Part shown: in pieces, positions 27,554 through 53,560 of the stretch
Layout: each line of letters opens with the position of its first letter
Position numbering within the stretch: the first letter of the stretch is position 1
Assembly: GCA_017546145.1 (NCBI GenBank)
Contig: JAFYXN010000005.1
Coordinates: 1-64,000 of the forward strand
Origin: Clostridia bacterium
Lineage (GTDB): Bacteria > Bacillota > Clostridia > Monoglobales > Monoglobaceae
Direction of reading: 5' to 3'
DNA: 64,000 nucleotides
Notes under the pieces: model-generated
Seen by the model: only the letters and a program-made list of their open reading frames with translations
Told to the model about the DNA's origin: nothing
Databases searched by the model: none
Made by a program: the position numbers and the translations under genes

Positions 27554-27685
27554 GAATATACGAAAATACATAACATTCTTTGCGAATTTCATAAGATAGT
27601 TGAAGATTTAAATATCGGAATATGCTATCATTATTATTGGACTTATGTATATTAAAATTATTTTATTGAGGAGATGAATGGATTT

Positions 27686-30042: not shown

Positions 30043-30054
30043 GGGGGATAAGGT

Positions 30055-30978: not shown

Positions 30979-31036
30979 ACAGTAATATTAATATGTACAA
31001 ATATTTATATTAAGATAAATATGAGGGGGAATAGTA

Positions 31037-33064: not shown

Positions 33065-36000
33065 ATGAAGAAAAAGTTTGTTTCCATATTAATCGTGCTT
33101 ACTATGCTACTTAGTATGCAAAATACATTTGCCTATCTTGCGTATAATGTGGGTCCCATTACATATGAACTGGAGAATGAAAATATAGTAGATGTAGAAA
33201 AAGCCTCTGTAGAACAAGAAGGTATTAATGTTAATGCTGACGGAGCCGTTACATACGATTTTTATCTTCCTTTTAATGCGGTGTCGTTTGATGTAACGTA
33301 TACTTCGGCACAAGATTTTTCTCTCTCTTTTGTAACAGAAGAGAGGACTGTTACAGCTTCTCTCGTTGCCGGTGAAAACATAACTGAAAATGTTTCTTTG
33401 GCAATTACAGAAAGAAAGGGCGAGAGAATTGTTAGTTTTTCTGTGACGGGTGCATGTTCCATCAAAAAGATAATATTCAATAAGGAAAAGGTTGAGACTG
33501 CTAATGTTGAGCTATTTCTTTGTGACCTTACTGAAAAGGAAACGGCAATTCAAAGTGCAGTTCTTTTGGATACCAAAGCAAGTATGCTTATGGTAAACGG
33601 AGGCAGACGATATATAGACAACAATGACCCTCGGGAAATACCATATACTTTTGAGGGAAGGGTATATCTTCCTGCGCATACTTTAGCAAGAGCTTTTGGT
33701 ATGTATATAGAGGATATGCCACATAGGGATTATTTACTGATACGCAATGATAAAACTGAGTTTGTATTTTATAAGCAAATCGCATACAAGGAAATTTTTG
33801 GAAGTAGCAAGGCAGAGATAAATAATGTTGTTATATACAAAGATGGAGAAGCATATTTACCGCTTAGGTATTTTGCAGAGAGTATTGGTAAGACAGTTGG
33901 CTACAAAGATGGCATAATAGCAATAGATGATAAGTTTTCCGTCGCTGATATATTAAATAATGAAGATGTTTTTGAATATGTCAGAGGAGAGTTTGAAGCT
34001 TTTTACCCGGATAATAGTATGGGAAGAACCTATTATGTTTCACAAACAAGCGAAACGAAGGATACACCTGACGGAAGTGCAGAAAGACCGTTTAAAACCT
34101 TGGAAGAGGCAGCACAGGTTGCTGTGGCAGGGGATACTGTTATTGTTCATGAGGGTGTATACAGGGAAACCCTAATTCCTAAAAATAGCGGAACACCGAC
34201 CGCACCAATAGTATTCAAGGCGGCTGACGGAGAGGATGTAGTAATTTCTGCAGCTGATACAGTCAGCGGTTTTAAATTAGATTCAAAGGGTTATTACAAA
34301 GCACCCATATCCTGGAATTTGGGAGATGGAAGAAATCAGGTTTTTTATAATGGTAAGTCAATGGTAGAGGCACGGTATCCAAACGGTCCTGCGATTGAAA
34401 TGGGTGAAAATAATGAGCCGTTAAGCTCCCTTTGGCCTGTTCTTGGTGATATCGTTTCAAGCGATGAAGATAAATACTTATTGACAAGTGATACATTACT
34501 TTCACAGGAAGAGAATTATTGGAAAGGTGCAACTCTCGTGGCAATGCGGGGACAAGGCTGGTGCCTGTCAACAGCAAAGGTTCAGGAGTCAGGTAATGGA
34601 TACTTAAAGGTTGAAGATACTTCAAATTACTATTGGTATGACCAGCAGGTACGTCATTGGAAGTATGCATATCTGAGCGGACATATAAATGCCCTTGACA
34701 CATATGAGGAATGGATTATTGATGGCGGATACCTTTATTTCATTCCTCCGAAAAATGCAAATACTTCCGGTTTAGAGGTAGAAGTTAAGAGACGACAGCT
34801 TGTGGCAGACTTATCTCAGAATTCTTTTGTGAAGCTTGATGGCTTTAAAACAATCGGCGGAAGTATAAAAATGAATGACAGTGAAATGTGTACTCTCAGC
34901 AATATGGAAATGAAGTACCTTAATCACTTTGTAAAGAGTAAAGACCAACATTCAGGCTTCATTGACGATGCAAATGTTAGTGACCCCAAAGGTGCACCGT
35001 CGCGGGGTGAGGTAGGAATTTATATTGGTGGCAGAGATAATATCGTTATTAACAATACGATGGACAGTGCCGCAGGCGCAGCAATATATGGCGTTGGATG
35101 CTATACATACATTGAAAACAATCTGATCAAGGATTGCGGATATGCCGGAAGCTATGTTGCAGGATTGTATTTCAGCGGCGAGGCTTGGAAGCCGGCTACA
35201 TCCAAGAGAGGTGGACACTTCATTTATCATAATACTGTATACAATGCAGGACGCTCGGTTTTACAGCATACACGACCTGCAGGACAGGGATTGTGGCCTT
35301 ATCTTCCGGAGGAAATTGCCTATAATGATTTTCACGATGGTATGCTTGCGTCATTGGATACAGGTGTTACATATGAATATTATGTTTTGATGGGACACGA
35401 GAAGCTATTTACAAAAATGCATCATAATTTAGTATATGTTACTTCAGAACAATGGAATCCATACAGTATGGGAATTTATCATGACGGTGGGTCAGAAAAT
35501 ATTGATACATACTGCAATGTTGTGTTTAGCGAAAAACCAAACATTGGTTTTTCTGACGCATATATACACACAAGTAAAGCTGATGAAAGTGAGTCCTATT
35601 GTCCATGTTGGAATAATATTCAAATTATGGGCGGTGTTGAGGGCGGCAAAGACGGTCTTGTTGCTACAGATTTCCCCAATCAGAAACCATTTTATGCTGG
35701 CGCATTTGGTGATGAAGAATATTTGGTAAACTTTAATGCGATTTCAAAAGCTGAGGTTAATACAGATATTTATTATGCAAAAGATGCTGTGCTTTCAAGT
35801 GGAACTGCATTAAACGGATATGCGGCAGTGTTAGATGAGGTCGGTGAATACGTTAAGTTTGAGGATGTTAATTTCCATGATGGAAAGAATGAAATTTCTA
35901 TTGAATTCTATGGAGATAAGTATAACACAGGTGACAAAATAGAAATAATCATTGGTAATGACACCGCTACCCAAAAGGTGTATAGCGGGACGCTCATAGC

Positions 36001-36571
36001 GACTTCGCCTATGAAAGACGATGTGAATATATTCAGAATACAAATTGGAGTTATATCAGGTGAAAAGGATGTGCTTATAAAAACAACATCGCCAAAATCT
36101 GCACAAATCCTCAGTATGAAACCCGGAAGAAGCTATTTTGACTATGTTGATTTAGATTCTCAAAAGCTGTATGGCGGTTGGTATACATACTATGTTGGTG
36201 AAAACTTAGCCTCGCCGCCGGAAAGACGATATTTGGTTCCGGATGATGCGGCTAATCCTACTGTATTCAATACATACAATGGAACAACAATAGTTTACGA
36301 AGATGTTTTATTTGCAGTAAGTCCGACTACATTCGAAGCAAGTGTTTCAGCAGCGTCCGGTTATCATGGACAGACGATCGAGATAAGAATAGACGATTTG
36401 CAAAGCGAACCTGTGGTTGAGTTAACAACCGTCAATACCGGCAACTGGTATAATTTCGGTATACTAAATGCTGAAGTTCAAAAACAGATTTCTACCGGTA
36501 AGCACACGGTATATCTAAGCTTTAAGGGAAGCGGCTTGACAAGTGTTTATTGGTTTAAGTTCGGCAATTAA
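33065..36571 (+). CDS. Giant secreted right-handed beta-helix protein 1
   Basis: This 1168-residue protein has a signal peptide (KKKFVSILIVLTMLLSM). Residues about 170-300 are a copper-amine-oxidase-N-like module (LPAHTLARAFGMYIEDMP and YLPLRYFAESIGKTVGY). A DUF1565/parallel beta-helix begins near 320 with TYYVSQTSETKDTPDGSAER and PFKTLEEAAQVAVAGDTVIV. The helix contains GEVGIYIGGRDNIVINNTMD and KDQHSGFIDDANV. Two beta-sandwich modules like CBM6/35 close it (EVGEYVKFEDVNFHDGKNEI and HGQTIEIRIDDLQSEPVVEL). The fold is that of pectate lyases and many other polysaccharide lyases and hydrolases, but I cannot point to a known catalytic triad. It is paralogous to the next gene. Confidence 0.82.
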   Translation: MKKKFVSILIVLTMLLSMQNTFAYLAYNVGPITYELENENIVDVEKASVEQEGINVNADGAVTYDFYLPFNAVSFDVTYTSAQDFSLSFVTEERTVTASLVAGENITENVSLAITERKGERIVSFSVTGACSIKKIIFNKEKVETANVELFLCDLTEKETAIQSAVLLDTKASMLMVNGGRRYIDNNDPREIPYTFEGRVYLPAHTLARAFGMYIEDMPHRDYLLIRNDKTEFVFYKQIAYKEIFGSSKAEINNVVIYKDGEAYLPLRYFAESIGKTVGYKDGIIAIDDKFSVADILNNEDVFEYVRGEFEAFYPDNSMGRTYYVSQTSETKDTPDGSAERPFKTLEEAAQVAVAGDTVIVHEGVYRETLIPKNSGTPTAPIVFKAADGEDVVISAADTVSGFKLDSKGYYKAPISWNLGDGRNQVFYNGKSMVEARYPNGPAIEMGENNEPLSSLWPVLGDIVSSDEDKYLLTSDTLLSQEENYWKGATLVAMRGQGWCLSTAKVQESGNGYLKVEDTSNYYWYDQQVRHWKYAYLSGHINALDTYEEWIIDGGYLYFIPPKNANTSGLEVEVKRRQLVADLSQNSFVKLDGFKTIGGSIKMNDSEMCTLSNMEMKYLNHFVKSKDQHSGFIDDANVSDPKGAPSRGEVGIYIGGRDNIVINNTMDSAAGAAIYGVGCYTYIENNLIKDCGYAGSYVAGLYFSGEAWKPATSKRGGHFIYHNTVYNAGRSVLQHTRPAGQGLWPYLPEEIAYNDFHDGMLASLDTGVTYEYYVLMGHEKLFTKMHHNLVYVTSEQWNPYSMGIYHDGGSENIDTYCNVVFSEKPNIGFSDAYIHTSKADESESYCPCWNNIQIMGGVEGGKDGLVATDFPNQKPFYAGAFGDEEYLVNFNAISKAEVNTDIYYAKDAVLSSGTALNGYAAVLDEVGEYVKFEDVNFHDGKNEISIEFYGDKYNTGDKIEIIIGNDTATQKVYSGTLIATSPMKDDVNIFRIQIGVISGEKDVLIKTTSPKSAQILSMKPGRSYFDYVDLDSQKLYGGWYTYYVGENLASPPERRYLVPDDAANPTVFNTYNGTTIVYEDVLFAVSPTTFEASVSAASGYHGQTIEIRIDDLQSEPVVELTTVNTGNWYNFGILNAEVQKQISTGKHTVYLSFKGSGLTSVYWFKFGN

Positions 36572-36619
36572 AGCTGAAAGATACAGCCCGATATTAAATT
36601 CAACATAAGGAGGAAATAA

Positions 36620-39600
36620 ATGAAAAGACGAATTCTATGTTTAATGCTGGCCACAGCACTTCTTATTCCTGCATTATCTTCCGTGAATGCAGGAGCGGTG
36701 AAAGGAAATGTTTATTTCGTAGGCCCGAGAGAGTATACTCTAACCGAGAAATATCTTGATGATGTAAAGAATGCGAAGATGTCCGGCGAAAAAATTGAAC
36801 TTGAAGCAGGCGGTTCAGTGACATTTGGCTTTTATCTGCCATTCAATGCCGAAAGCTTGACACTTGAATTTTCGGGAACACCCGCACCTGTGTCTGTTTC
36901 GACTGGAACGGAAAAGTATGTTATTGACCCGGGCGAAAGCAAAGAGTACACATACTTGCTTGACACATATGAAAGAATTGGAGAGAAGATATATACGGTT
37001 TCATCAAATTTGCCGGTTAAATTGTCCAGACTGACATTTGATGTTGCGGCAGAACGAAGCACATATGCCAGTGCCGAAAAGGCACCTGCCATATCTGACG
37101 AAGAGTTTATGCTTCAGAATTCTTTCATAATTAAAACAGATTGCCCGATGATAATTGTAAACGGTGGAAGAAGATACATAAATCTTGATGATTATTCCGA
37201 GTTGCCCATATATGTAAATGGAAGTGTTTATATCCCTATACACACTTTAGCAAGAGCACTTGGTATTTATTATGAGGATCTGCCGGATAAAAAATATGTT
37301 CTTTTGAGAAACGATACAGATGAACTTGTATTTACAGAAAAGTTCTCATACAGCAATAACAATCTGAAACAAAAAACACCAATAAACAATGTTGTTCATT
37401 ATAGAAATGGCAGGACATATCTTCCGGTTCGGTATGTTTCGGAATTTTATGGTCGCAAAGTGGGATATAAGGATGGTATGATAGCCATTGATGATAACAA
37501 ATATTATGTTGCGGATATCCTGAACAGCAGCACCTCAGTACACAAACATGTTGAAAGTCTGTTTGCGGAGCTGATGCCAGATGCTGAAAGCGGTAAAACC
37601 TACTATGTTGCAAAAACAGCAAACGCAAGCGATGCCAATTCTGGAACATATGATGCACCTTTTAAGACCATTACAAAGGCAGGACAGGTTGCAAAGGCGG
37701 GCGATACAGTTATTGTCCGTGAAGGAGTGTATCGTGAAACTGTTACGGTAAAAAATAATGGCACGCCTACCTCTCCGATCACATTCAAAGCGGCAGAGGG
37801 TGAAAAAGTTGTTATTTCAGCAACTGAAGAAATAAAAGATTTTATGCCATATGGCGAGAATATGGCTGTTGCGGCAATTCCGTATGATATGGGCTTTGGA
37901 AAGAACCAGATATTTTTTGGTGAAAAAACAATTCCTGAAGCAAGATATCCCAATGGCCCCGGTATAGATATGGGCAAAAAAAATGAACCCTTATCTTCCA
38001 ACTGGCCGGTAACTGCACCTTTGATTACGGATAAGCAAAAAAATCTTACAGTTTATAATGAAGAATTGCTGAATCAACCTGAGGGAACATGGGATGGTGC
38101 GCGTTATATCACCGTCCGCGGCCTGGCATATGCAACAAGCTATGCGATTGTTGAACATTCAAAACCGGGTGAGCTTACTCTGACAGAACCAAGTGTTTAT
38201 TGGTGGGATACAGGAACCTCCAATGATGGAATACAGTGGGGTTATCTGTGCGGCAGCCGTGCGGCGTTGGATGAGCCGGGAGAATGGGTTATTGAAAATA
38301 AAACCTTATTTATAATGCCTCCGGAAGGTACAGCAATTGATGAACTGGTAGTTGAAGCGAAGGCTCGTCAGCTGGTGGTTGATATACCGGATAATAAGTG
38401 CGTAAGATTTGAAGGCTTTACCACAATTGGCGGAAGTATGCGGCTGAATAACAGTGAGCTTTGCGTGATTAAAGATTGCACTATCAAGTATAACAATCAC
38501 TATACCTACAGCAAGGACCAGCATTCAGGCTTTATTGATGATGCTAATGTTATGGACTCCAATGGTGCTCCCGCAAGAGGTGAGGTAGGACTGTATGTTG
38601 GAGGCAAAGATAACATTTTTGTTGGCAATACCTTTGATGAGGCAGCAGCTGCTGCGATTTACGGCGTGGGTCTTTATATTTATATAGAAAATAACCTTAT
38701 AAAAAACTGTGGTTATGCAGGAAGCTATGTTGCCGGTCTGAATTTTAACGGTGAAGCGTGGAAAGGCTCTGACTCTCCAAGAGGCGGAATGGTTATTGTT
38801 GGCAATACAGCGTACAATGCAGGCCGTTCACCACTCCAGACTACCCGCCCTGCGGCAAAAGGTGAATGGGCTATTATACCCTATGAGGTAGCATTTAATG
38901 ACTTCCACAACGGTATGCTGACCTCTCTTGACACCGGCGTTGTATATACATATTTTTCGGATCATGGTAACAACCGTAAGAAAACACAGATGCATCACAA
39001 TTTTGTTTACTATGACTTGGATGAGGGAAATCCTTTCTCATTTGGTATATACCACGACGGCGGAACACTTAATATTGATACCTATAACAATCTCGTATTT
39101 TGTACGGAACGCGGCGTAAGATTTACACACGAACCATATGTTTTCAATTATCCCGGAGCCGACAAAACAAATGCCAATAATGTTTGGAACAATTCTGCAA
39201 TAAAAAGAGCTGTTACGGGCGGCAGGGACGGTCTTGTGCCAAGTGACTATCCGGATGGAATGATGTTTGACGCAGGCTGCGTTATGGGCAGAGAACCATA
39301 TACCAAGAACTATGAAATGATTATCAACAACGACCCGAAACTGAATGTTGTAGACGGATATATAAGTGCCGAAAACGCCGAACCGGGTGCAGGAGCCGAG
39401 TACATCGGCAATGATGTCAGACTTGAAAAAGCAGGTGAATGGGTAAAATTCCCGGCTGTAGATTTTGGTGAGGGTAAAAACAGTATTACGCTTTACTATA
39501 AAGGAGACAGATACCTCGAAACTCCGGCATTGGAGATAGTTATAGACGATATAGACGGAGGCACGCCGCAAAAAAGTGGAGATGTGTACTTCTGGGGAGC

Positions 39601-40630
39601 TACGGTTGATGATGTATGCACACTGAATACTAAGTTGCCGTTATATAGCGGTAAGCACGATGTGTATGTGCGAGTAAGCAAAGAAGCAGGTGCCATTGAC
39701 ATAAGCGGCATTAAAACAGATTCGGTTACGGCAAATGACGATGCAACGCTCGGCAGCAATATACTTTATGGTGGCGATTTCGTTGATTGCAGTGTATCGG
39801 TCAAAGGCGGCAATGCACCGGAAATAAAGTTTGGTGCTATGGAGGACTTTAGCAATCCGTATGCTGTAGCTATATTACCGGGCAGTAACCTCGTTTATGA
39901 ACAGGTGCTTGTTGAAAAGTCCTCTGATGTCGCAATAATAAAGTACCGCAATGATAGCGGCGACGGAGGACAGAAAATACAGATTCGCCTTAATTCACTT
40001 GAATCAGAACCTCTTGCAGAGTTTGAGACAGAAGCCGTTCAAAGCGGTGTATGGACAGAAGAAAGAGTGGCACTTAGCAGCGAACTTGAACCCGGAACCT
40101 ATAGCTTCTATGTGACATTTAAGGAGAATACAAACACCACGCCGATAAGTACGAGCCTTTATGCTGTTAAATTTGGTAGAGAGGCAGAGGAACGCATCAA
40201 AGAAAATACTCTGTATGGCGGCGATTTTGACAGCTTTATTGCGGCACCCGACGGAGAACTTGCCCCGATGCGCAAGTTTGCCGGAGCAGGAGAAACTCTG
40301 CCGTATGTAAATAACACATGGCCGGGTACAGTTCTTGTATACAAGGATGTTGAACTTAAACATGACTCTGCAAAAATCATTGTAAACCAAAGTACTGACG
40401 GGGATTATTCGGGTCAGCATGTGCAGGTGCGTATAGGCTCGGCAACAGCGAAACCGATTGCTGAGTTTATGTCTGACGGCGATGGCTGGACAAATCGCAA
40501 AGACATAGAGGTTCCCATAAAGGACGGACTTGCCGCAGGTAAATATGATATTTATTTAACCTTTGAAGAACCCGGCGGAATATATGTCAACAAAACCTGC
40601 AATCTATACACATTTATTTTTACAGAATAA
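36620..40630 (+). CDS. Giant secreted right-handed beta-helix protein 2
   Basis: The 1336-residue paralogue of the previous gene has the same order: a signal peptide, an unknown beta domain, a copper-amine-oxidase-N-like module (IPIHTLARALGIYYEDLPD), a beta-helix from about 330 (TYYVAKTANASDANSGTYDA) and C-terminal CBM6-like modules. It carries two further copies of the terminal module, each starting LYGGDF and containing a QKIQIRL or QHVQVRI strand, so it is about 170 residues longer. The strongly shared beta-helix segment (SKDQHSGFIDDANVMDSNGA and LYVGGKDNIF) is the best candidate for the active or binding face. The gene is 48 bp after its partner, so both are made together. Confidence 0.82.
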   Translation: MKRRILCLMLATALLIPALSSVNAGAVKGNVYFVGPREYTLTEKYLDDVKNAKMSGEKIELEAGGSVTFGFYLPFNAESLTLEFSGTPAPVSVSTGTEKYVIDPGESKEYTYLLDTYERIGEKIYTVSSNLPVKLSRLTFDVAAERSTYASAEKAPAISDEEFMLQNSFIIKTDCPMIIVNGGRRYINLDDYSELPIYVNGSVYIPIHTLARALGIYYEDLPDKKYVLLRNDTDELVFTEKFSYSNNNLKQKTPINNVVHYRNGRTYLPVRYVSEFYGRKVGYKDGMIAIDDNKYYVADILNSSTSVHKHVESLFAELMPDAESGKTYYVAKTANASDANSGTYDAPFKTITKAGQVAKAGDTVIVREGVYRETVTVKNNGTPTSPITFKAAEGEKVVISATEEIKDFMPYGENMAVAAIPYDMGFGKNQIFFGEKTIPEARYPNGPGIDMGKKNEPLSSNWPVTAPLITDKQKNLTVYNEELLNQPEGTWDGARYITVRGLAYATSYAIVEHSKPGELTLTEPSVYWWDTGTSNDGIQWGYLCGSRAALDEPGEWVIENKTLFIMPPEGTAIDELVVEAKARQLVVDIPDNKCVRFEGFTTIGGSMRLNNSELCVIKDCTIKYNNHYTYSKDQHSGFIDDANVMDSNGAPARGEVGLYVGGKDNIFVGNTFDEAAAAAIYGVGLYIYIENNLIKNCGYAGSYVAGLNFNGEAWKGSDSPRGGMVIVGNTAYNAGRSPLQTTRPAAKGEWAIIPYEVAFNDFHNGMLTSLDTGVVYTYFSDHGNNRKKTQMHHNFVYYDLDEGNPFSFGIYHDGGTLNIDTYNNLVFCTERGVRFTHEPYVFNYPGADKTNANNVWNNSAIKRAVTGGRDGLVPSDYPDGMMFDAGCVMGREPYTKNYEMIINNDPKLNVVDGYISAENAEPGAGAEYIGNDVRLEKAGEWVKFPAVDFGEGKNSITLYYKGDRYLETPALEIVIDDIDGGTPQKSGDVYFWGATVDDVCTLNTKLPLYSGKHDVYVRVSKEAGAIDISGIKTDSVTANDDATLGSNILYGGDFVDCSVSVKGGNAPEIKFGAMEDFSNPYAVAILPGSNLVYEQVLVEKSSDVAIIKYRNDSGDGGQKIQIRLNSLESEPLAEFETEAVQSGVWTEERVALSSELEPGTYSFYVTFKENTNTTPISTSLYAVKFGREAEERIKENTLYGGDFDSFIAAPDGELAPMRKFAGAGETLPYVNNTWPGTVLVYKDVELKHDSAKIIVNQSTDGDYSGQHVQVRIGSATAKPIAEFMSDGDGWTNRKDIEVPIKDGLAAGKYDIYLTFEEPGGIYVNKTCNLYTFIFTE

Positions 40631-40674
40631 TTGGTAAATCTATTTACCGGTATAAAAAACAGAGGAGGTATGAC

Positions 40675-42993
40675 ATGAAAAGATTTATTAGTGCGGTGCT
40701 GACTGCGATGCTCATAATTCTGAGTATTGGCACTGTGCCGGTTCTGGCGTCATCATCGTTGATTGTTGATCTGGATGTTTCAGGCTACAATCAAACCGAT
40801 AAAACAGGTATTTTGAATGCTGTTACGGAAAAAGCGGACTATATAACGATACCGACAGGCAATGCACCTACATTAAAGTCAATGAGTGCTATTTCCGGAA
40901 CGACCTACTACCTGGATTTCCCATGGGGAAAGTACATTGAACTTAACGACCCCCAATTGTTTGGTAAAAATGAGCTTACCATTGAACTGTGGGCTAAACC
41001 AAACGCTGCAAAGGTGTACAGACTTCCGTTTGTTATGACAAACGGAACCCTTCATTCTATGCAGTTTCTGACCAATGAATCAGGTGCGGGGCTTTATGTA
41101 AAGCCTAACGGCGACCAGAACGGAAAACCCACTTATACCATAACCGGTTCAATGGGCACAGAGTGGCGGCACTATATTGTTACCAGACGATATGTCGCAG
41201 GCGAGGGGAAATGGTATACAGCCGGATACTGCGATGGCGTCAGGACTTTTGAAAACAGCTTTGACGGAGCTGCAATCAGCGAGAGCGGCGGATACTATCT
41301 GTCGCTCGGCGGAAACCGTGCCAACTCAACTTTTGAGGGATGTATAGGTGGTATGCGAGTTTACAGCAAAGCACTTTCTGCATCAGAAGCAAAGGCGGCT
41401 TTTGACGAAACCAAGTATGATTTTATGGAGGCTTCGCAGACTATGGGGCTGCAGTCAATAACGCCGGCAGAGGGTGACTTGCTGTGTACAACCGGAAACA
41501 TAGAGATTAATTTTGATAACTATATCGATCAATCAACGCTTGAACATATAACCTTTACAAAAGAAAATGGCGACGCTGTGCCCGGAAAGATTATAATTAA
41601 GGCAAGCGACGGCTATACAAAAAAGGTTACAATCCGTCACGGATTGCTGGAGGTTGGAGCGAGATATAAGGTTACGATAGGCAGCGATGTCAAATCAACA
41701 AATGATATTGCATATACGGGTAACCGGGAGATTGTATATACTGCGGTGCCGGCTATTATTTACGAAAACGACTTTTCGGGAAGCGAATATGTGGTAAATA
41801 ATCCGCCGCCTTTGAATGACGGAATTACATATTACAGTTCAGGTACGGCTGACAGCGCAGAGGATTTCTTGGTTTTGGAAACCGAGGACGGCGATAAATA
41901 TGTTGCGGGTGTTTCAAATGCCGTTTCAAAGTCCAGCCAAATGATTTACAATTTTGAGCCAAGCCTTTCCTCAGGTTATGTTGCTATTGAGCTTGGAGTG
42001 AAGGGATATGTGCCTGATTCCACCGCGACCGGCACAGCAGCCCGCGAAGTGCTCAGGTTTTATGACGGAGATGATACAACCTATAAGCAGTTTGGTGTTT
42101 TGTCCGATGTGGTGACTGTGGACAGCGTAAAGTCCTCCCCAAAAGCAGACGGCTTCAACTATATCAAGGTTGTTCTTTCAAAGGGAAGCGACGGAAATTA
42201 TAATTTTGATTTCTATAGCGACCAAAGCTCCGACCAATATACTCGCTTCAGTCCAAGCACATCTGCAAGTGTGCTGACTGCTGATGATATAGGCAAAGTG
42301 CTTTTGGCACATGTATATCCTACAGATGAAAGTCAGACAGGAACTGTGGGGTTTGCCATTACATCACTTAAAATTTACTATACTGACGGCCCGGGAGTGA
42401 TAGGCGGTACTGAAGGTGAAATTGCAAAAACAACAGATACTGTTGAAGTTTATTTTGACAGTGAAATGGACGAATCAAGTCTGGAAAATGCAGTGTACGA
42501 GCTAAAATCCTCATCGGGTGAGGAAACGGTCAGAGCTGTTTACTCAGACTATAATGCTGACACCTTTACCTTGACGCTATCCTTGGAGGATTACCTCTTG
42601 CCGAACACAGCCTATAATCTTTCAATAAAAAATGTATTATCGGCTTCAGGCAAGGACTTTGTAGGCGAAAATATACTGTCGGTTTATCTTGAAGATAGTG
42701 CCAACAAGCCTGAAAGTGCGGCGATAAGTCCGCTTGTTGTTGGCGGAGATGTTACAGCGACCGTGAATTTACCGGCAGGAGCAGAAACCGTATGCATTTT
42801 GACTGTATATGACAGTGTGGGCAGAATAAAAAATGCAAAAATGGAGACTGTTTCTTCGGCAGCAAATACAATAAGCTTGTCGGTGGACGGAGGCGTAAAG
42901 AATGGAGATATTGCAAAGCTTCTTATGTGGGAGCAGACCTCCGGCGGATATAACCCTGTTACGGTCGATGCGGTAACGCTTGAATGTAATTAA
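40675..42993 (+). CDS. Secreted LamG-domain protein with bacterial Ig-like domains
   Basis: The 772-residue protein has a signal peptide (LTAMLIILSIGTVPVLAS). A concanavalin/LamG domain spans about 60-245 (LTIELWAKPNAAKVYRLPFV and CIGGMRVYSKALSASEAKAA). Big_5-like Ig domains follow (PAEGDLLCTTGNIEINFDNY near 260 and TVEVYFDSEMDESSLENAVY near 580), with a beta-sandwich between. It should bind glycans at the surface. There is no SLH or sortase signal, so it is either free or held by partners. It shares its LamG type with the gene at 43310 and follows the beta-helix genes without a clear break. Confidence 0.82.
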   Translation: MKRFISAVLTAMLIILSIGTVPVLASSSLIVDLDVSGYNQTDKTGILNAVTEKADYITIPTGNAPTLKSMSAISGTTYYLDFPWGKYIELNDPQLFGKNELTIELWAKPNAAKVYRLPFVMTNGTLHSMQFLTNESGAGLYVKPNGDQNGKPTYTITGSMGTEWRHYIVTRRYVAGEGKWYTAGYCDGVRTFENSFDGAAISESGGYYLSLGGNRANSTFEGCIGGMRVYSKALSASEAKAAFDETKYDFMEASQTMGLQSITPAEGDLLCTTGNIEINFDNYIDQSTLEHITFTKENGDAVPGKIIIKASDGYTKKVTIRHGLLEVGARYKVTIGSDVKSTNDIAYTGNREIVYTAVPAIIYENDFSGSEYVVNNPPPLNDGITYYSSGTADSAEDFLVLETEDGDKYVAGVSNAVSKSSQMIYNFEPSLSSGYVAIELGVKGYVPDSTATGTAAREVLRFYDGDDTTYKQFGVLSDVVTVDSVKSSPKADGFNYIKVVLSKGSDGNYNFDFYSDQSSDQYTRFSPSTSASVLTADDIGKVLLAHVYPTDESQTGTVGFAITSLKIYYTDGPGVIGGTEGEIAKTTDTVEVYFDSEMDESSLENAVYELKSSSGEETVRAVYSDYNADTFTLTLSLEDYLLPNTAYNLSIKNVLSASGKDFVGENILSVYLEDSANKPESAAISPLVVGGDVTATVNLPAGAETVCILTVYDSVGRIKNAKMETVSSAANTISLSVDGGVKNGDIAKLLMWEQTSGGYNPVTVDAVTLECN

Positions 42994-43140
42994 AATATTA
43001 GGCTTTGTCTCAAAAAACAGTTGATGTATTAACATCCTCATTGCAGAACCTAACGACTATTCTTTGCCTAAGGAACGGTTTACGGGCAGTTCCCTGCAAT
43101 AATATAATCAGCTGTTTCGTGCGACATAGTCAGATATATA
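42993..43140. repeat. 148-bp palindromic repeat, copy 1
   Basis: The unit begins aaatattaggctttgtctc and ends gacatagtcagatata. Its two ends are imperfect inverted repeats of about 30 bp (CTTTGTCTCAAAAAACAG against CTATGTCGCACGAAACAG). An inner pair, attgcag/ctgcaat, extends the hairpin. A second copy follows head to tail with no gap. It fits a miniature inverted-repeat element or a structured RNA. There is no coding potential. Confidence 0.75.
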
Positions 43141-43288
43141 AAATATTAGGCTTTGTCTCAAAAAAATAATTGATATATTAACATCCCCATTGCAGAATCT
43201 AACGATTATTCTTTGCCTAAGGAACGGTTTGCGGACAGTTCCCTGCGATAATATAATCAGCTGTTTTGTGTGACATAGTCAGATATAA
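43141..43288. repeat. 148-bp palindromic repeat, copy 2
   Basis: This is a tandem second copy of the preceding unit, differing at scattered sites (for example aacctaacgac becomes aatctaacgat). Most changes keep pairing through G-T. It ends about 20 bp before the gene at 43310, so it forms the leader of that LamG gene. Confidence 0.75.
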
Positions 43289-43309
43289 TAAATTAAAGGA
43301 GAGAAAAAA

Positions 43310-44461
43310 ATGAAAAAATTTCTATCTATAATACTTGCGACAGCAATGATTATGGGTGTGTTCTCAATGACTGCAGTTTATGCAGAAAACGAGCCTGCAC
43401 CTGTATTTACACTTGATTTTTCGGGATATGACGGAACAAATGTGTCAGGTCTGAAGAATAGTGTTTCGGGCTCGGCTTCGACATTTGCCGTGGGCACATC
43501 CGGGAATGCATTTCCTGCTGTGAGAACTGACTGTACCCCAAACGGTATCAATAAATACATCCAGTTCAGTGAGGATGATACCGGTAGTTCTCTTGGCGGA
43601 ATAGCAATTACAGATGCGACTCTTACCGCCCTGGACACTATGACATTTGAAACATGGGTTAGATTTACTTCACTTGATACGGGCAGCCAGCATTTGGTAT
43701 CTTTCAACTCTAATAGAGATAAGCACACCTTCCAGATTCAGCAGAGTGTACAAGTGAAGGTTGATGGAGTTGTGGACCCAACGCAATTCAAAATATATGT
43801 AAAACCTTGGGGAGACAACTACACGGTTTGGACTACTTCATTGGAGAAGACGATAACCAACAACGAATGGCATCATCTGGTTGTTACCCGCACCGATACT
43901 GAAGCGGTATTTTATATTGATGGAACTGAGGCAGGAAGAAAAACGCATACAACAGCTGTTACAAAAACATATACGCCATCGCTGATTCAGCTTGGCTGTG
44001 CAAAATGGGGCAACTATATGAAAGGCGGCATGGGCGCTCTGAATATATATAACAGCGTTTTGACAGGTGAGCAGGTTGCGAAGCTTTATGCCGATTCTGC
44101 AGCAAAATACACCTGTCAGGCTGTGACCTACAAGGACGCTGACGGGAATGCTATCTCAGAAGAGATGCCTGACGGCGATACAGAGGTAAGTGCTCGTTTT
44201 GCATATAAGAATACAACCTCCAGTGCTGTTGCTCCTTTGGTAATACTTGGCTATTTTGAAGACGGAAAACTTATTAATGCTAAGGTTGCTGATGAGGTAA
44301 GTGTTGCGGCAGGAAAAATAGGTGTTATAAACGCAGATGTTGACGAAATTACTACTAAACCAACCGGACAGGTTAAACTTTTTGTGTGGGATAGTTTTGA
44401 TAGCATGAAACCGATTCTAGACGGTGATTATCTGACTGTGCCATACCAGCAGAGTCTTTGA
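43310..44461 (+). CDS. Secreted LamG-domain protein
   Basis: The 383-residue protein follows AAAGGAGAG. It has a signal peptide (ILATAMIMGVFSMTAVYAE). A LamG/concanavalin-like fold spans about 35-260 (MTFETWVRFTSLDTGSQHLV and NNEWHHLVVTRTDTEAVFYI). The beta-sandwich tail (EVSARFAYKNTTSSAVAPLV) resembles the last domain of the gene at 40675. It is likely a secreted glycan-binding protein. The tandem 148-bp repeats lie in its leader and may affect its expression. Confidence 0.82.
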   Translation: MKKFLSIILATAMIMGVFSMTAVYAENEPAPVFTLDFSGYDGTNVSGLKNSVSGSASTFAVGTSGNAFPAVRTDCTPNGINKYIQFSEDDTGSSLGGIAITDATLTALDTMTFETWVRFTSLDTGSQHLVSFNSNRDKHTFQIQQSVQVKVDGVVDPTQFKIYVKPWGDNYTVWTTSLEKTITNNEWHHLVVTRTDTEAVFYIDGTEAGRKTHTTAVTKTYTPSLIQLGCAKWGNYMKGGMGALNIYNSVLTGEQVAKLYADSAAKYTCQAVTYKDADGNAISEEMPDGDTEVSARFAYKNTTSSAVAPLVILGYFEDGKLINAKVADEVSVAAGKIGVINADVDEITTKPTGQVKLFVWDSFDSMKPILDGDYLTVPYQQSL

Positions 44462-44481
44462 CCCGGCTGAAGCTGAAAATA

Positions 44482-44513
44482 ATCGGGTGTATGCTTTAAA
44501 GCATACACCCGAT
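44482..44513. repeat. Perfect 32-bp palindrome
   Basis: Sixteen bases (atcgggtgtatgcttt) are followed at once by their exact reverse complement. A small agggc/gccct hairpin follows (44516-44530). There is no T tract, so it is not a standard terminator. It may be a regulator or recombinase site, or a junction scar. Confidence 0.75.
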
Positions 44514-45050
44514 GAAGGGCTTTTGCCCTCTACGGTTATTGCTGATAATTTTACTCTGCTTGATGATGAGGGTGAAAACATAAATATTTCATCCGTCGTT
44601 TACAGCAAGGGGGAAAACCTGCTTTTGATTTATCCCGAAAAAGGAAGCCTGAAGTCACAACACTATACACTTTCAGCGGACTCAGAATTGAAAAATTCGG
44701 AGGGGCTTTCATCGGATTTGTCGGTGACGGGTTTAGTCCCTGATATGGAATGGGAAGCTGCACCTTATGGAGTTTCAGCAGCCTATTCCGTTTACAGAAA
44801 GGACGGAAAAATTCTGTATAGCCTGAAGGGAATTGATGATTACAGTGCCTCGTTTGAGATAATAAATACTTCAGGGACAGACTACGCTAATTTTGCGTAC
44901 ACAGTACATCCCAAGAATGAACCGCAGGTGGTTCTGGCTTCGGGAAGTATAACGATTGCATGTGATGAAACTGTGAAGATAGATATAAATGTCAGTGACT
45001 ATATTATGGAAGCTGATGATGATTTGATTGTTGATTTTGATTTTTCTTAA
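44487..45050 (+). pseudogene. Orphan C-terminal fragment of a surface protein
   Basis: The frame reads as a beta-rich Ig-like segment (LLPSTVIADNFTLLDDEGEN, then YTLSADSELKNSEGLSSDLS). It ends in a second beta-sandwich, closing with DLIVDFDFS. The only start is a GTG inside the 32-bp palindrome, with no ribosome site and no signal peptide. The frame continues upstream to about 44460 (DPAEAENNRV), which is out of phase with the preceding gene. A domain lost by deletion or a frameshift from the LamG gene is likely. A short real gene remains possible. Confidence 0.55.
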
Positions 45051-45078
45051 CTTTATTGAGGAAAGGTGATGTTGAGTG

Positions 45079-48000
45079 ATGAAACAGATGTCTTTGATTT
45101 TGGTGCTTGCCATTATTCTTACCACCTTGAGTATGCCGTTTGTGGAGGCAGCCGGTACACATGACCCGTACTTGGCACTTGAAATGGTCAAATTTGATGA
45201 AATTGTGAATAAAGCTGCAAACACCACAGCAGATGACCGTGGATTTGTCAGAAATATTACTGCCGGAAAGCATATACTTTTTAGAGCTGTTGATTTTGGC
45301 GAATTTGGACCTGTTGGTGTGGATATTTACGCAGCTTCGGAAGGCACCTCTGCCGGCGGCGAGGTTGTAATACGGATAGATGACCCCAAAAGTGAGCCTA
45401 TTGCACGGGTTACGACTGAAGGTGCCGGTTGGGCGAATGCGGTCAGATTGTATACTGATATTACGAAGAGGTTTACCGGCGTTCATGATGTATATGTTTC
45501 TAATGAGGGCGGGGTATCAAACCTTTTTAGAGCTGTGTTTGTTGAAGGCGAAGAGGTTTCCTCCGGTGCGGTGGCATATGTAGGTGATGTGGAATTTGAT
45601 GACATTAAGGGCAATCCTTATGAGTATTCAATTTATACACTTTGGAATTTAGGAATTTTGGAGGGCTTTGCCGAGGGTGTGTATGAGCCGGAGATAGGTG
45701 TTTCAAGAGCTGACTTTTCCAAAATTTTATTTAAAGTTTTAAATGACGGGGAATATAAGAGTACAGAGCAAATTTATTCAGATGTTCCCAAAGATGATGA
45801 AGCTTTTGACGCTGTTGGATTTCTTAACAGTCGTGGTGTGATTTCTATGCCCGAGGATAAGAAGTTTAATCCATACAGTTTTATTAAAACAGTGGACGCT
45901 GTTGTTATGACTGTTCGTGCACTTGGATACGAACCTCTTGCAAAGCTGAGAGGCGGGTATCCCACAGGCTATATGACCATTGCGGTCGAGGAGGGCCTTT
46001 TGAGAGGTCTTAAGATAGACGAGCATCTTCGCCGTGATACAATGGCGGTGCTTGTTGAAAATATGCTTGATGCAGATTATTTAGATATAAAGAGCATAAG
46101 CAGTGACGGTAATGTGGATTACGAAAAAACAGCGGGTATACTTGAACTGACCCGTGGTATATACAGGGGTAAAGGGATTATTTCGGCAAATTCCTGTACC
46201 CAATTAAACATTCCGGACAGCTCGGTTGAAAGCGGGGAAGTGGTTATTAACGGAAAAACCTACCTCGTAGGTGATACTGCGGCAGAGCTGTTGCTTGGAT
46301 ATGATGTAAATTATTTTTACACAGTGGACAAGGAAGCTGATAAGAGGACGATTATCTGCGTTCGCCCTCAAAACGGTCTTGACATTGATGTATATGATAC
46401 AGCAGAAAATGCTGAAGGTGTTGATATCGATGAAAAAGGTATCAGCTGTGGTATTGTTGGCGGTAGGGATAAGGCTGTAAGTTTTTCTGATGCTACACGG
46501 TTTATATATAACGGTGTTGCGATTGATGGCTTGCTTTCAGATGCTATGGGCGGAAATGAATTCCGCGGCAGAATTACACATATTAAGCACTCAAATGCCG
46601 ACGATGTAGTTTTAATTGAACATTATACAAACATAGTGGTCGAGAGTGTGGACACATTGAAGAATGTCGTAAAAGACAAGCTTTCGGGTAAAGTGTTTAA
46701 TCTTGCCACTAAGGACAATAATGTTTTAATTCTGAAAGATGGGGAACGGTCGTCGTTCAGATCTATTGTTACAGGCTCGGTGCTTACAGTATATGCTTCA
46801 AACAGCAGTTCGAAGCGAGGCTTTATAAAGGCAATAATAGAGTCTGGGGTTGTTTCCGGAACGGTAACTATGGTTAAGGCGGAAACGGTTATTATTGATA
46901 ATCAGGAATATAAGATTTCTCCTGATTGCAGGGACACCATTTTTGTCGGTATGACAGGGAATTTTGTAATTAATTCATTTGGGGAGATTGTGACCATTGA
47001 TTATACAGCCAAAGAAGGGGCGCAGGTTGGAATAATTCTTGATTACGCACAAGAGTCAGAGCCGTTTGAAGACTACCTGCGAATCAAGGTATTCAACAAG
47101 GATGAGCAAACTGTAATTTTGCCGTTAAAACAGACGGTTACCATGGATGGTGTAGTTTGCAAGACCGTAAATGAGGTGGTTAATGGAAAAGGCTCGTATC
47201 GTGGTCTGAAGAATGTGAATATGCAGACGCTGATTCACTATAATGTGAATAGCAGCGGTGAAATAAATATGATTGATACATACCTGATGGGTGCAGAAAA
47301 TAGCAATGATGTACTCAAACGATTGACAACTGGCGTGGAAAGCATGAATTTTGTAAGGGATAACTCTATGATTGTCCGCAGCACCGGTGCGGGTGCATTC
47401 CCGTATGATACCGACCCCGAATTCTTTATCTTTTGGGAGGCTAACGATCCGGATACGCTGATTTACAATAGCAAGTTTGAGATAGGCGGCGATATTGGAA
47501 GCGAGACCATATTCAATGGGGATATTTATTCACTTGATTCTAAAAATCCTTATGCAGAATATGTTATTTGGCAGGGACGTGGCGATGTAAGCAAATGGAA
47601 GCCGGTTAAGATTTTTAATGAGATAAGTTACAGCATAGACGAAAACGGCGATTATGGATATACGGTCAATCTGAAAAGCTCGACCGGTGAAGAAGATTAT
47701 TTTATCTCGGAGGAGAATCTTGGCCAAAATGCCGCGCTTAAAGCTATTTTAGATACGATTGTTAAGGGCGATGCAGTCAGGTTTAAGCTGAATCAAAAGG
47801 GTCATATTGTAAACGGACAGGTGATGTTCTTCCATGATGGCAGTGAAACGCGCAACGGCGTTTCGGCTGCGGTGTCTAAAAGCTTAGGCATTGGAAGCGG
47901 TGCTGATCGTTATCAGTATCTAAGAACTCTGTATGGTAAGGTTGTAGCCAAGTTTGGAAAGTTTATTGAGCTTGAATACCTTGATGCAAAGGGAAATGCT

Positions 48001-48180
48001 GTAAGAGAATACTGCTATGTTGACGGCAATGTTGCAAAGTGTGACTACACCGATACGACCAGACCGGCATTGGAGGTATCAATCCCCGGTGATAACATTG
48101 AAGTAGGCAGCAAGGTTGCGGTGTTTACTGCAAACGCTGTTACTCAGCAAGTGGTTATATATGTTCATCAAAATCTTTAA
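45079..48180 (+). CDS. SLH-anchored surface protein with CBM6-like domain
   Basis: The product is about 1033 residues, with a signal peptide (SLILVLAIILTTLSMPFVEA). A CBM6-like module comes first (GKHILFRAVDFGEFGPVGVD, VIRIDDPKSEPIARVTTEG), the same type as ends both beta-helix proteins. Two to three SLH repeats follow at about 180-345 (YTLWNLGILEGFAEGVYEPE, VGFLNSRGVISMPEDKKFNP). The remaining 680 residues are beta-rich repeats of unknown type. SLH domains bind pyruvylated wall polymer, so this is a wall-fixed protein and may hold the glycan-active proteins at the surface. The ATG at 45079 was chosen; a GTG lies 3 bp before it. Confidence 0.82.
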   Translation: MKQMSLILVLAIILTTLSMPFVEAAGTHDPYLALEMVKFDEIVNKAANTTADDRGFVRNITAGKHILFRAVDFGEFGPVGVDIYAASEGTSAGGEVVIRIDDPKSEPIARVTTEGAGWANAVRLYTDITKRFTGVHDVYVSNEGGVSNLFRAVFVEGEEVSSGAVAYVGDVEFDDIKGNPYEYSIYTLWNLGILEGFAEGVYEPEIGVSRADFSKILFKVLNDGEYKSTEQIYSDVPKDDEAFDAVGFLNSRGVISMPEDKKFNPYSFIKTVDAVVMTVRALGYEPLAKLRGGYPTGYMTIAVEEGLLRGLKIDEHLRRDTMAVLVENMLDADYLDIKSISSDGNVDYEKTAGILELTRGIYRGKGIISANSCTQLNIPDSSVESGEVVINGKTYLVGDTAAELLLGYDVNYFYTVDKEADKRTIICVRPQNGLDIDVYDTAENAEGVDIDEKGISCGIVGGRDKAVSFSDATRFIYNGVAIDGLLSDAMGGNEFRGRITHIKHSNADDVVLIEHYTNIVVESVDTLKNVVKDKLSGKVFNLATKDNNVLILKDGERSSFRSIVTGSVLTVYASNSSSKRGFIKAIIESGVVSGTVTMVKAETVIIDNQEYKISPDCRDTIFVGMTGNFVINSFGEIVTIDYTAKEGAQVGIILDYAQESEPFEDYLRIKVFNKDEQTVILPLKQTVTMDGVVCKTVNEVVNGKGSYRGLKNVNMQTLIHYNVNSSGEINMIDTYLMGAENSNDVLKRLTTGVESMNFVRDNSMIVRSTGAGAFPYDTDPEFFIFWEANDPDTLIYNSKFEIGGDIGSETIFNGDIYSLDSKNPYAEYVIWQGRGDVSKWKPVKIFNEISYSIDENGDYGYTVNLKSSTGEEDYFISEENLGQNAALKAILDTIVKGDAVRFKLNQKGHIVNGQVMFFHDGSETRNGVSAAVSKSLGIGSGADRYQYLRTLYGKVVAKFGKFIELEYLDAKGNAVREYCYVDGNVAKCDYTDTTRPALEVSIPGDNIEVGSKVAVFTANAVTQQVVIYVHQNL

Positions 48181-48258
48181 AGCAGATTACAGAATGAATT
48201 ACAACGACAAGCCGCTGGCAAACAAATTCCAGCAGTGGCAGAAATGATGAGGTTCTAT

Positions 48259-50025
48259 ATGAAAAAAATTTTGATTTCCATTACTCTTATTATTGTGGCG
48301 ATGGTTGCAAACATACAGCTTGTTTTTGGTGAAGGAACCACCGTTTATACGGTCACTCCCGATGTGAACGGGGACAGTTTTACTGTTGCGGGAACTGTTT
48401 CAGGGAACAAAGGCAATGTGATGCTGACGCTTGTGGTAAAGAAGCCTGACGGCAGTTTTTTTGCAGGAGCACAGACGGTGGCAATGCGAAATTCGCAAGG
48501 AAAGATTGCGTTTGCTTTTGATGAGATAAAATTCCCGTACGCAGCGGATACAGGAATGTATTCATTCACCGTGACCGGCGATGGATTTACTGCTCCGACA
48601 TCGGTTCCGACTTATAATTATGTGTCACTTGAAGACAAAAGACAGCTTTTGATTGATATAAATGCTCTTGCTGCGGCAGGCGGCAGCGGTATATATGAAA
48701 AGGTCAGCCCGTATGCCGAACTTCTGGGCGTTTCTGCATCAGAGCTTTCGAGTTTTGACACCGACGCAATAGATATTTTTAATACCTGTATGAAGACAAA
48801 GACATACACGGTTCCTGACGCACTGGATACCGAAGCTAAGGTTTTGCAGGTGAGGAACAGCTGCGGAGAGCTTGTGTTGCAAACCCAAGATGCTTTTGTG
48901 GTTGCTTCATTTGCTAATATTAAAGATGCTGATATGACGGCTGATTGGATGACCCGAAATTATACTGCTCTGGATTTTGACAAAAATGACGCAGGAACAC
49001 CGGAAGACGAGGCGGTGATTACGACATATTTCAATAATGTGAAAGGAACCGCCACCTTTGCGACGAGAATTGCTGCGTGTAATAATGTTGCTTCGCTGTC
49101 GGATGTGAGGGAAGATATAAACGAAAGTGCACTTCTTTCAGCAATTGAAACGATGCATTTTAGTAATACATATAGTATTATCACCGGATTTCCCAGCTTA
49201 TTTACGATAAACACAACGAATCTTGCGACACTTGGCGGTCTGTCCAGTGAAGCGCCGGGTGAAATATATACTCAGATTGCAAAAAACTATTATGCGAACT
49301 ATGCAGATGTTATTACAGCTTTTGATACAGCCGTAACAAACGCTATATCGTTACTTGGAGGCGGCGGAACCGACGAAGGAACTGACGGCGGAGGCTGGAC
49401 CGGAGGCGGAGGCGGCGGTGTGTCGATTACAGATAAAAAAGATAACACTACCGATAAGCCTTCAGCATCGACCGAACAGCTGGGCGAAGCTCAAAACAAT
49501 GGCTTCAGGGATTTAGCTGATGTTGAGTGGGCAAAGGATGCCATTATTTATCTTTCTGAGAGAGGAATTATAAATGGCAAGGCACAGGGCGTTTTTGCTC
49601 CAAATGATTTTATTACGAGAGCAGAATTTATAAAGATTCTGGTAGGTGCAACCAACGCAGAGATTAAGTCGGATGCAAAGTCTTCTTTTGCCGATGTATC
49701 TGCAAATAAGTGGTATGTCCCATATCTTGCAGCAGCTGAAAAGAATAAGCTGGTTCTGGGCAGTGATGATAATTTGTTTATGCCTGAAAGTAATATTACC
49801 AGACAGGATGTTGCGGTTATTTTGTACCGTGCGTTCAAGCCCTTGGCAAAAACCGAACCGCTTAAATTCAAGGATACCGCAAGTATAAGCGATTATGCGG
49901 CAGAGGCTGTTGAGTCCTTGACAGCGGCAAAGATTATCAACGGAATGGGTGATGGAATGTTTTCACCTTTGGAGGGTGCAACCAGAGCTCAAGCGGCGGT
50001 TATGATTTATAAGCTTATTAAATAG
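48259..50025 (+). CDS. SLH-anchored surface protein with Ig-like N-terminal domain
   Basis: The ATG at 48259 follows GAGG and leads into a signal peptide (KKILISITLIIVAMVANIQL), so earlier in-frame ATGs at 48235-48250 are rejected. The 588-residue protein has an Ig-like domain (about 15-110), a helical middle and a Gly-rich linker (about 370-392). Three C-terminal SLH repeats follow from about 415: DLADVEWAKDAIIYLSERGI, DVSANKWYVPYLAAAEKNKL, and FKDTASISDYAAEAVESLTA. It is the second wall-anchored member of the locus. Confidence 0.87.
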   Translation: MKKILISITLIIVAMVANIQLVFGEGTTVYTVTPDVNGDSFTVAGTVSGNKGNVMLTLVVKKPDGSFFAGAQTVAMRNSQGKIAFAFDEIKFPYAADTGMYSFTVTGDGFTAPTSVPTYNYVSLEDKRQLLIDINALAAAGGSGIYEKVSPYAELLGVSASELSSFDTDAIDIFNTCMKTKTYTVPDALDTEAKVLQVRNSCGELVLQTQDAFVVASFANIKDADMTADWMTRNYTALDFDKNDAGTPEDEAVITTYFNNVKGTATFATRIAACNNVASLSDVREDINESALLSAIETMHFSNTYSIITGFPSLFTINTTNLATLGGLSSEAPGEIYTQIAKNYYANYADVITAFDTAVTNAISLLGGGGTDEGTDGGGWTGGGGGGVSITDKKDNTTDKPSASTEQLGEAQNNGFRDLADVEWAKDAIIYLSERGIINGKAQGVFAPNDFITRAEFIKILVGATNAEIKSDAKSSFADVSANKWYVPYLAAAEKNKLVLGSDDNLFMPESNITRQDVAVILYRAFKPLAKTEPLKFKDTASISDYAAEAVESLTAAKIINGMGDGMFSPLEGATRAQAAVMIYKLIK

Positions 50026-51605: not shown

Positions 51606-51618
51606 GGAGAAAAATACT

Positions 51619-52353: not shown

Positions 52354-52359
52354 GGTTGA

Positions 52360-53460: not shown

Positions 53461-53560
53461 CGAAAAACATTATGGTTAAGACATATAGGTAACAGTTGTG
53501 ATAAGCTTTTTGCTTTTTACAATATATTTTTGCTAAGAAATTGTCACAAGGAGAATGTAT

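Follow-up and report, generated by a model that had tools for sequence, protein, structure and literature searches.

What does a cluster of large, modular surface proteins do in a ruminant-gut-type Clostridium, and why does one of its genes break off at a sequence known from prfB? The window, the whole 64,000-nucleotide stretch of DNA that was analyzed, carries the cluster on its forward strand as follows:

33065-36571, forward strand, beta-helix protein 1, probably GH141-type, secreted, 1168 aa (Pfam, structure prediction and alignment)
36620-40630, forward strand, beta-helix protein 2, probably GH141-type, secreted, 1336 aa (Pfam and sequence comparison)
40675-42993, forward strand, LamG/Big_5 surface protein 1, unsplit (Pfam LamG_3, E 1e-14)
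43310-44461, forward strand, LamG surface protein 2, short form of 383 aa, ending in CTT TGA C (Pfam LamG_3, E 1.2e-21)
44456-44462, forward strand, putative +1 slip site CTTTGAC (CTT at 44456-44458, stop codon TGA at 44459-44461)
44460-45050, forward strand, Ig-like tail of 196 codons in the +1 frame (listed as ORF 44487-45050 from GTG)
45076-48180, forward strand, CBM6 and SLH surface protein (Pfam CBM_6, E 3.7e-8, and two SLH stretches)
48235-50025, forward strand, SLH protein with three C-terminal SLH stretches (Pfam)

An earlier note on this DNA had described two giant beta-helix ORFs with common copper-amine-oxidase-N (CuAO-N) and CBM6 modules, a CBM6-like module on an SLH-anchored protein, and two LamG proteins in between, and each of these is present. 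The beta-helix proteins are 43% identical to one another, and both match Pfam Cu_amine_oxidN1 (E 6.9e-8 in protein 1, 1e-10 in protein 2) and CBM_6 (one stretch in protein 1, E 1e-15; three in protein 2, E 1.9e-17). The E-values for the CuAO-N, CBM6 and LamG modules put a chance match far off. Protein 1 begins with a signal peptide and a beta-sandwich, followed by CuAO-N (residues 192-282), the beta-helix (about 319-900), a CBM35-like module (898-1023) and CBM6 (1032-1168). The earlier note does not mention the ORF at 44487-45050, which separates the second LamG gene from the CBM6/SLH gene.

The beta-helix proteins had been left unassigned to any known lyase family. They need not be lyases, as the best fold match is a GH141 enzyme and its catalytic-type residues are conserved. 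BT_1002 (GH141) ranked first in both structure searches (Foldseek E 9.9e-15; VIA Z 24.4), and the VIA alignment covers 410 residues at an rmsd of 2.7 and about 17% identity. The catalytic pair of BT_1002 is D523/D564 (PMC12786026), and the corresponding residues within the beta-helix of protein 1 are Asp765 and Asp807, which are invariant in all 33 aligned relatives. That alignment includes the two window proteins and was drawn from 34 homolog loci, with N-terminal-only matches and a few near-duplicates excluded. Compared with bona fide GH141_M proteins, the Asp pairs aligned at 96.3% with the 33-row profile and at 5.8% with a 9-row profile, a weak C-terminal comparison, and the profile comparison spans the GH141_M insertion region at 97.3%. 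Neither window beta-helix protein matches Pfam GH141_M (PF21231), and among the 33 relatives six match at E <= 0.01 (best 0.0011). The structure model is of low confidence over the catalytic part (about 765-860). GH141 members described in PMC12786026 include the fucosidase BT_1002, the xylanase Xyn141E and the Wf141 endo-fucanases; the window proteins share with this family the beta-helix, a GH141-like insertion region and the Asp pair, however they differ in their CuAO-N and CBM6/CBM35 architecture, their low identity to BT_1002 and their missing GH141_M match. The GH120 beta-xylosidase XylC (3vst) is strongly similar over the N-terminal ~100 residues (profile E 3.5e-35), but its second half is far weaker (8.6 bits), and the Asp spacing and insertion motif suit GH141 better.

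If these proteins were polysaccharide lyases, their weak matches to Chondroitinas_B and pectate-lyase-like profiles would be explained, as would the rank of rhamnogalacturonan lyase 5olr, second among the fold matches (Z 20.9 over 238 residues). The sequence matches, however, span about 45 to 60 N-terminal residues, BT_1002 leads both structure lists over a much longer alignment, and the GH141 Asp pair is kept; structural similarity to lyases is common to all such beta-helices. We consider a lyase identity improbable, and PL6/PL9-like families appear an unlikely home for these proteins on account of the short N-terminal matches. Together, the alignments and models suggest that the beta-helix proteins are probably GH141-type hydrolases.

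The genes on either side of the cluster bear on whether it serves glycan breakdown:

15647-29026, forward strand, sugar-breakdown cargo: GH2, metallo-beta-lactamase-fold protein, esterase-like, SDR, KDPG aldolase, PfkB kinase, RraA-like, two GH10-like and enolase-superfamily dehydratase genes
26561-27460, reverse strand, AraC regulator inside the cargo region
29074-32950, forward strand, ABC importer as a whole (permeases and binding lipoprotein)
29074-30042, forward strand, ABC permease 1 (Pfam BPD_transp_1)
30055-30978, forward strand, ABC permease 2 (sequence and synteny)
31037-32950, forward strand, ABC binding lipoprotein (sequence and synteny; without a Pfam match, 47% identical to its G218 counterpart)
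50072-56454, forward strand, M24 peptidase-like, ASRT, creatininase-like, DUF4432, GH1 and Gfo/Idh genes

The ABC permeases, binding protein, beta-helix protein(s), LamG/Ig, CBM6/SLH-type and SLH proteins are grouped in six other loci, found in G004 (two loci, with the order locally swapped), G008, G218, the buffalo-rumen genome G059, and G468. That much the same genes travel together bears out the proposal that they are a co-inherited surface set. In relatives, GH94, GH3, GH116, GH78 or GH95/GH29 genes lie nearby. A structural or adhesive S-layer system, as opposed to a degradative one, would account for the many SLH and Ig-like parts and for the weak resemblance of the tail's structure model to S-layer Ig domains (SbsC, E 6.7e-4). 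We regard it as quite unlikely given the importer, GH1, GH2, two GH10-like and KDPG aldolase/kinase genes that adjoin the set, and the glycosidases near it in relatives. We instead favor, with reasonable though not high confidence, a surface glycan-degradation locus on a tRNA-Ser-type element, equipped with GH141-type hydrolases and a frameshift-split lectin.

Named relatives of the beta-helix proteins come largely from marine Flavobacteriia, and a search of the beta-helix enzyme profile across the phylum returned one of 398 genomes, again G468. The locus puts a deep, putative GH141-type branch, with mostly marine named relatives, into ruminant gut bacteria. Two of the marine homolog loci examined are rich in sulfatases, but the scanned genes of the window showed none, and a sulfated algal polysaccharide was tentatively set aside as the substrate in the gut.

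The earlier note had also placed the set on a mobile element, and the features that bear on this claim lie near the edges of the window:

2049 onward, partial tRNA-Ser-like repeat, candidate other end of the element (22 of its 26 first bases match those from 60239)
58870-60204, forward strand, tyrosine integrase adjoining tRNA-Ser
60239-60330, reverse strand, tRNA-Ser beside the integrase

The integrase, the tRNA gene and the imperfect repeat speak for an element, and the glycan locus likely sits on one that looks tRNA-Ser-integrated. No empty attachment site was found in nine genomes of the genus, so the ends of the element are putative.

The LamG genes had been taken as ordinary, however the second is split at CTT TGA C. 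None of about 250 other ORFs in the comparison ends in CTT TGA. Joined across the slip site, LamG and tail would yield a predicted product of 579 aa. The tail is conserved as protein (window against G004, E 2.3e-27), and the window shows the core pattern of prfB-type sites, a YTT codon before a TGA or TAA stop and a long conserved +1 frame. Across genomes we counted ten split LamG/tail loci, of which seven have YTT TGA with a +1 tail and eight have the tail in +1 overall. Six end in CTT TGA and a seventh in TTT TGA; because G484 and G485 are nearly the same and do not count as independent, the six become five if this pair is taken as one. Three of six loci found later by protein similarity alone, after the frameshift idea had formed, again have CTT TGA and a +1 tail. 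Where BLAST could align the upstream LamG ORFs, their identity is just 22.5-35.8%, suggesting that the slip site outlives the sequence around it. The mechanism is not uniform, as G218 has CAG TAA at the split with its tail in +1, and G483 and G425 have the tail in frame behind TGA. The locus count leaves out G221, G069, G252, G175 and G468:C27, where the tail matches are partial and embedded in longer open frames. A search of the tail profile across the class hit five of 391 genomes, the window's own included, with no new split locus; the matches in G016 and G183 are in frame inside larger frames.

Decay, or a sequencing or assembly indel in a gene normally read in one frame, could also produce a split. 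G059 has, at the same place in the gene order, a LamG protein whose C-terminus is the tail, fused in frame (E 1.5e-14, residues 1117-1294 of 1298), and a looser relative in G362, counted neither as split nor as a sure ortholog, likewise carries the tail in one frame. Every split locus comes from a draft assembly, and two of the loci have the in-frame TGA instead. Against this, all ten tails are intact over 187-196 codons, and random indels would not pick one slip site, as the recurring CTT TGA and TTT TGA would demand. We therefore hold this explanation to be very unlikely.

Somewhat less improbable, but still doubtful, is that re-initiation or coupling past the LamG stop makes the tail as a small protein of its own. 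In the window, a GTG occurs 28 bases downstream of the first base of the stop codon, AGGAGAG directly follows the TGA in G425, and the G483 and G425 tails are outside the +1 frame. Yet by eye no signal peptide can be recognized on the tail, even though the neighboring proteins are secreted, an ATG precedes it in one of six loci, and its homology begins at the junction, upstream of usable start codons. The recurrence of frame and slip site across loci and the G059 fusion also argue for a tail that belongs to the LamG protein. Together the sequence comparisons point to RF2-like programmed +1 frameshifting, which would yield two forms of a surface lectin.

A bacterial CTTTGA +1 signal has been described for prfB, the release factor 2 (RF2) gene, which bacteria regulate through this slip, with the consensus CTT_TGA_C / YTT_TRA_C (PMC3711429, PMC12421855). 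The same genomes use it there, with CTT TAA C in prfB of G000, G004 and G008 and CTT TGA C in that of G218. Like prfB, the LamG site in the window has YTT, an RF2-read stop and then C, followed by a +1 tail. It differs in that the gene encodes a secreted protein, the site is at the 3′ end, making two stable products possible, and the stimulatory SD-like AGGGGG, which in prfB sits three bases ahead of the slip codon, is absent by eye in the window (cagcagagt precedes CTT) and in one G004 locus. Near-AGGGGG sequences lie upstream of the slip codon in two other loci (GGAGGTGGG in L018, GGGGTGCAT in L103). With AGGGGG absent, we treat the site as working like a full prfB cassette without filing it as one. 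In Yersinia, a +1 shift at the 3′ terminus of yopN joins it to the next ORF, giving YopN-TyeA in a secretion-related system (PMC4914553); the arrangement is alike, but the proteins and organism are unrelated. Our literature search on frameshifting with LamG, SLH or carbohydrate-active enzymes found nothing relevant.

From the domains, the conserved gene set, the catalytic Asp pair, the slip site and the conserved +1 tail in the sequence, we infer how hydrolysis, substrate, frameshifting and tail might fit together. The two secreted hydrolases would cut a polysaccharide near the cell while their CBM6 and CBM35-like modules hold them to it. LamG/Ig proteins would bind the polysaccharide, SLH proteins would anchor the set on the cell wall, and the cleaved pieces would enter through the ABC importer. 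At CTT TGA C, translation would mostly terminate and give the 383-aa protein. A fraction of ribosomes would instead shift by +1 on CUUU, in the manner of prfB, and read on through the 196-aa pair of Ig-like domains, such that the cell would make short and long lectin at a set ratio. The tail may help the lectin pack into the S-layer or reach through it. We see an even chance that, in a group of gut Clostridia, the CUUUGA site fixes the ratio of plain lectin to lectin with two S-layer-like Ig domains and so the make-up of the surface glycan machine, perhaps coupled to RF2 supply, and that related loci keep the two-product output through an in-frame UGA. Two-product output may then be what is selected, because those loci keep the stop-then-extend design.

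A surface lectin gene would be an unusual place for a prfB-like ribosome slip. If the reading is correct, an RF2-type slip in secreted carbohydrate-binding proteins would be a conserved second use of the signal, recoding would gain a structural, dosage-setting role at the cell surface, and gene finders would be splitting such LamG proteins.

The genes that the earlier note described across 33065-50025 are present, and its reading of them as a surface complex is sound in outline. Two beta-helix ORFs (43% identity), each with a copper-amine-oxidase-N (CuAO-N) domain and CBM6, are followed 3′ by LamG, CBM6/SLH and SLH genes, while an ABC importer and sugar-breakdown genes lie 5′ of the surface genes:
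Upstream, sugar breakdown: GH2, SDR, KDPG aldolase, PfkB kinase, two GH10-like proteins, enolase-superfamily dehydratase
33065-36571: beta-helix protein 1
36620-40630: beta-helix protein 2
43310-44461: second LamG ORF
44460-45050: Ig-like tail, +1 frame
Downstream: M24, ASRT, creatininase-like, DUF4432, GH1, Gfo/Idh

The M24 peptidase-like, Anabaena-sensory-rhodopsin-transducer-like (ASRT), creatininase-like and DUF4432 genes are clustered directly behind the surface genes at 50072-53460. The two LamG genes are separated by a non-coding tandem duplication at 42991-43293, whose units are ~149 bp long and agree at 90% over 133 nt and exactly over a 27-nt end.

We consider a conserved stop-and-extend LamG gene the most interesting item of the region. 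The window's second LamG ORF closes with ...CAG AGT CTT TGA CCC, and 196 codons after this stop are open in the +1 frame. We surveyed 242 open frames of at least 150 codons on both strands of the window and 13 stretches. The +1 frame was open for at least 80 codons past the stop in 21 of the 242, and the four with YTT TGA were the four LamG loci, from which the idea of frameshifting came; the −1 direction yielded 30 frames, among them a minus-strand one with CTT TGA. Six split loci in other genomes (G218, G468, G484, G485, G483 and G425) were found later, solely by protein similarity of tail or enzyme. CTT TGA with a +1 tail occurs in three of these six, among which G484 and G485 are close relatives. 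In G218 the tail is +1 relative to CAG TAA, and a UUU-C slip is possible; G483 and G425 have it in frame 0 behind TGA:
L128 (G483), 813-815: in-frame TGA between LamG-type gene and tail
L129 (G425), 3062-3064: in-frame TGA between LamG-type gene and tail

This arrangement may reflect UGA readthrough or re-initiation, and the G425 tail, at a locus broken across two short contigs, may re-initiate. Across all ten split loci, YTT TGA with a +1 tail is found in seven, a +1 tail in eight and TGA in nine. TGA closes 52 of the 254 ORF ends in the comparison set, which includes some of these LamG ends; the other ~250 ends have CTT TGA at none and TTT TGA at four. Simple binomial values of 2.9e-6 for the TGA count among split loci and 3.0e-8 for CTT TGA in five of nine (assumed rate 3/250) are guides only, because they take no account of kinship and because four of the loci had prompted the idea.

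The +1 frame is coding, since the tail from G004 matches the window tail at E 2.3e-27. The slip site persists despite low identity of the upstream proteins: among 15 pairs from six loci, 10 were aligned by BLAST at 22.5-35.8% identity, and BLAST gave no alignment for five, all involving G218. An ATG precedes the tail in one of six loci examined, and no signal peptide was seen on the tails by eye. A Pfam scan of nine tails found no family above its cut-off; the modelled tail has two beta domains (pLDDT 78.5) and weakly resembles Ig domains of S-layer proteins (best E 6.7e-4). Pfam LamG, sought in the upstream ORFs of eight split loci, was found in the window, G004b (one of two G004 loci), G468 and G485, and was absent at E 0.001 from G004a, G008, G218 and G425. 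Judging from matches to a profile built on all ten split tails, in two genomes the tail is simply the protein C-terminus: a 1298-aa LamG protein of G059, where gene order is kept, has it at residues 1117-1294, and a 1330-aa protein of G362, different in architecture, at residues 1150-1305. At the junction, compared by eye, the G059 protein reads ...CYDPDAKYRL and the predicted window product ...SLDPAEAENNRVYAL; the domain preceding the stop, searched as a profile, gave no significant match on the G059 LamG protein.

The release factor 2 (RF2) gene prfB has CTT TAA C at its frameshift site in G000, G004 and G008 and CTT TGA C in G218, so slippage of this type operates in these cells. The prfB stimulator, given as AGGGGG in PMC12421855, however has no counterpart in the window or G004a; G004b and G468 come close to the canonical form, and the other split loci have a partial one. 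The stop-and-extend LamG gene is best explained by RF2-like +1 frameshifting, for which we claim novelty with respect to open-access text, including PMC5009743, PMC3711429 and PMC12421855.

The suspicion that the beta-helix proteins are lyases is probably wrong. The predicted structure of beta-helix protein 1 (mean pLDDT 77, poor at residues 777-856) has a CBM35-like domain at 898-1023 and CBM6 at 1032-1168, and both Foldseek and VIA ranked BT_1002 (GH141) first. A single-sequence PDB search matched mainly the core's N-terminal 80-95 residues to GH120 XylC; a 33-sequence profile reached XylC (3.5e-35), BT_1002 (4e-18) and others. Asp765 and Asp807 are unchanged in 33 of 33 aligned proteins. 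D523 and D564 are essential in BT_1002 (PMC12786026), and from their 41-residue spacing we infer that they are the Asp of MYDVAGVY and LYTDEGSS, with a numbering offset of 5. The window's genome encodes three further large secreted proteins with GH141_M over the Pfam cut-off, adjoining ABC importers (contigs C30 and C8):
L071, 6316-9984
L072, 7142-10834
L072, 10846-14406

Profile comparison with these three aligned the N-terminal half (97.3%), and a separate C-terminal-half run with a 33-row profile aligned both Asp (96.3%, E 2e-9); a 9-row profile gave the identical Asp pairing at 5.8% only. Pfam GH141_M itself had no match in the window's two beta-helix proteins, which, like the poor model at 777-856, counts against GH141. 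Given the BT_1002 fold match, the Asp invariance and the profile comparisons, we call them putative GH141-type hydrolases.

In the collection of named genomes, enzyme relatives occur at 34 loci, some matching the N-terminal segment only, from gut MAGs, Cohnella and marine Flavobacteriia. A search at E ≤1e-20 detected the core in 4 of 100 genomes, counting the window's own; further hits came from 4 of 95 genomes in G218's order, 1 of 28 in G059's order (G059 itself) and, phylum-wide, 1 of 398 (G468). Importer, enzyme(s), LamG/Ig, CBM6/SLH-type and SLH genes occur together in G004 (two loci, one reaching a contig end), G008, G218, G059 and G468, with the binding protein or split LamG gene relocated within the set in G004. 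G360 has the enzyme and SLH genes; its tail was not found. Neighboring enzymes differ between relatives' loci (GH94 and GH3; GH3; GH116 and a glucuronyl-esterase-like protein; GH78), and in G485 GH95 and GH29 adjoin the split LamG gene. The surface module thus appears to be redeployed on different glycans.

The window opens contig C16 of a 1.66-Mb draft genome (89.5% complete), with a GC content of 32-36% in its first 16 kb and 38-44% in most of 16-56 kb. Placement of the locus on a mobile element is likely: an integrase adjoining tRNA-Ser and a partial tRNA-Ser-like repeat from 2049 support an integrated element, and a search for its empty attachment site found none. The repeat (2049-2110), which resembles a degenerate 3′ portion of tRNA-Ser and received no gene call, is a candidate far attachment site. 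The element backbone carries a free-standing CuAO-N protein (3526-4365, E 3.4e-32), and its low-GC part has N6-methylase and TIR-domain genes with two small ORFs behind them (11387-15243), possibly a defence island. Past an AI-2E-like gene, non-coding 61835-62400 is part of a dispersed repeat: 60205-62400 as query had 17 own-genome matches, itself counted, most in the 61835-62400 part, and many in same-genus genomes.
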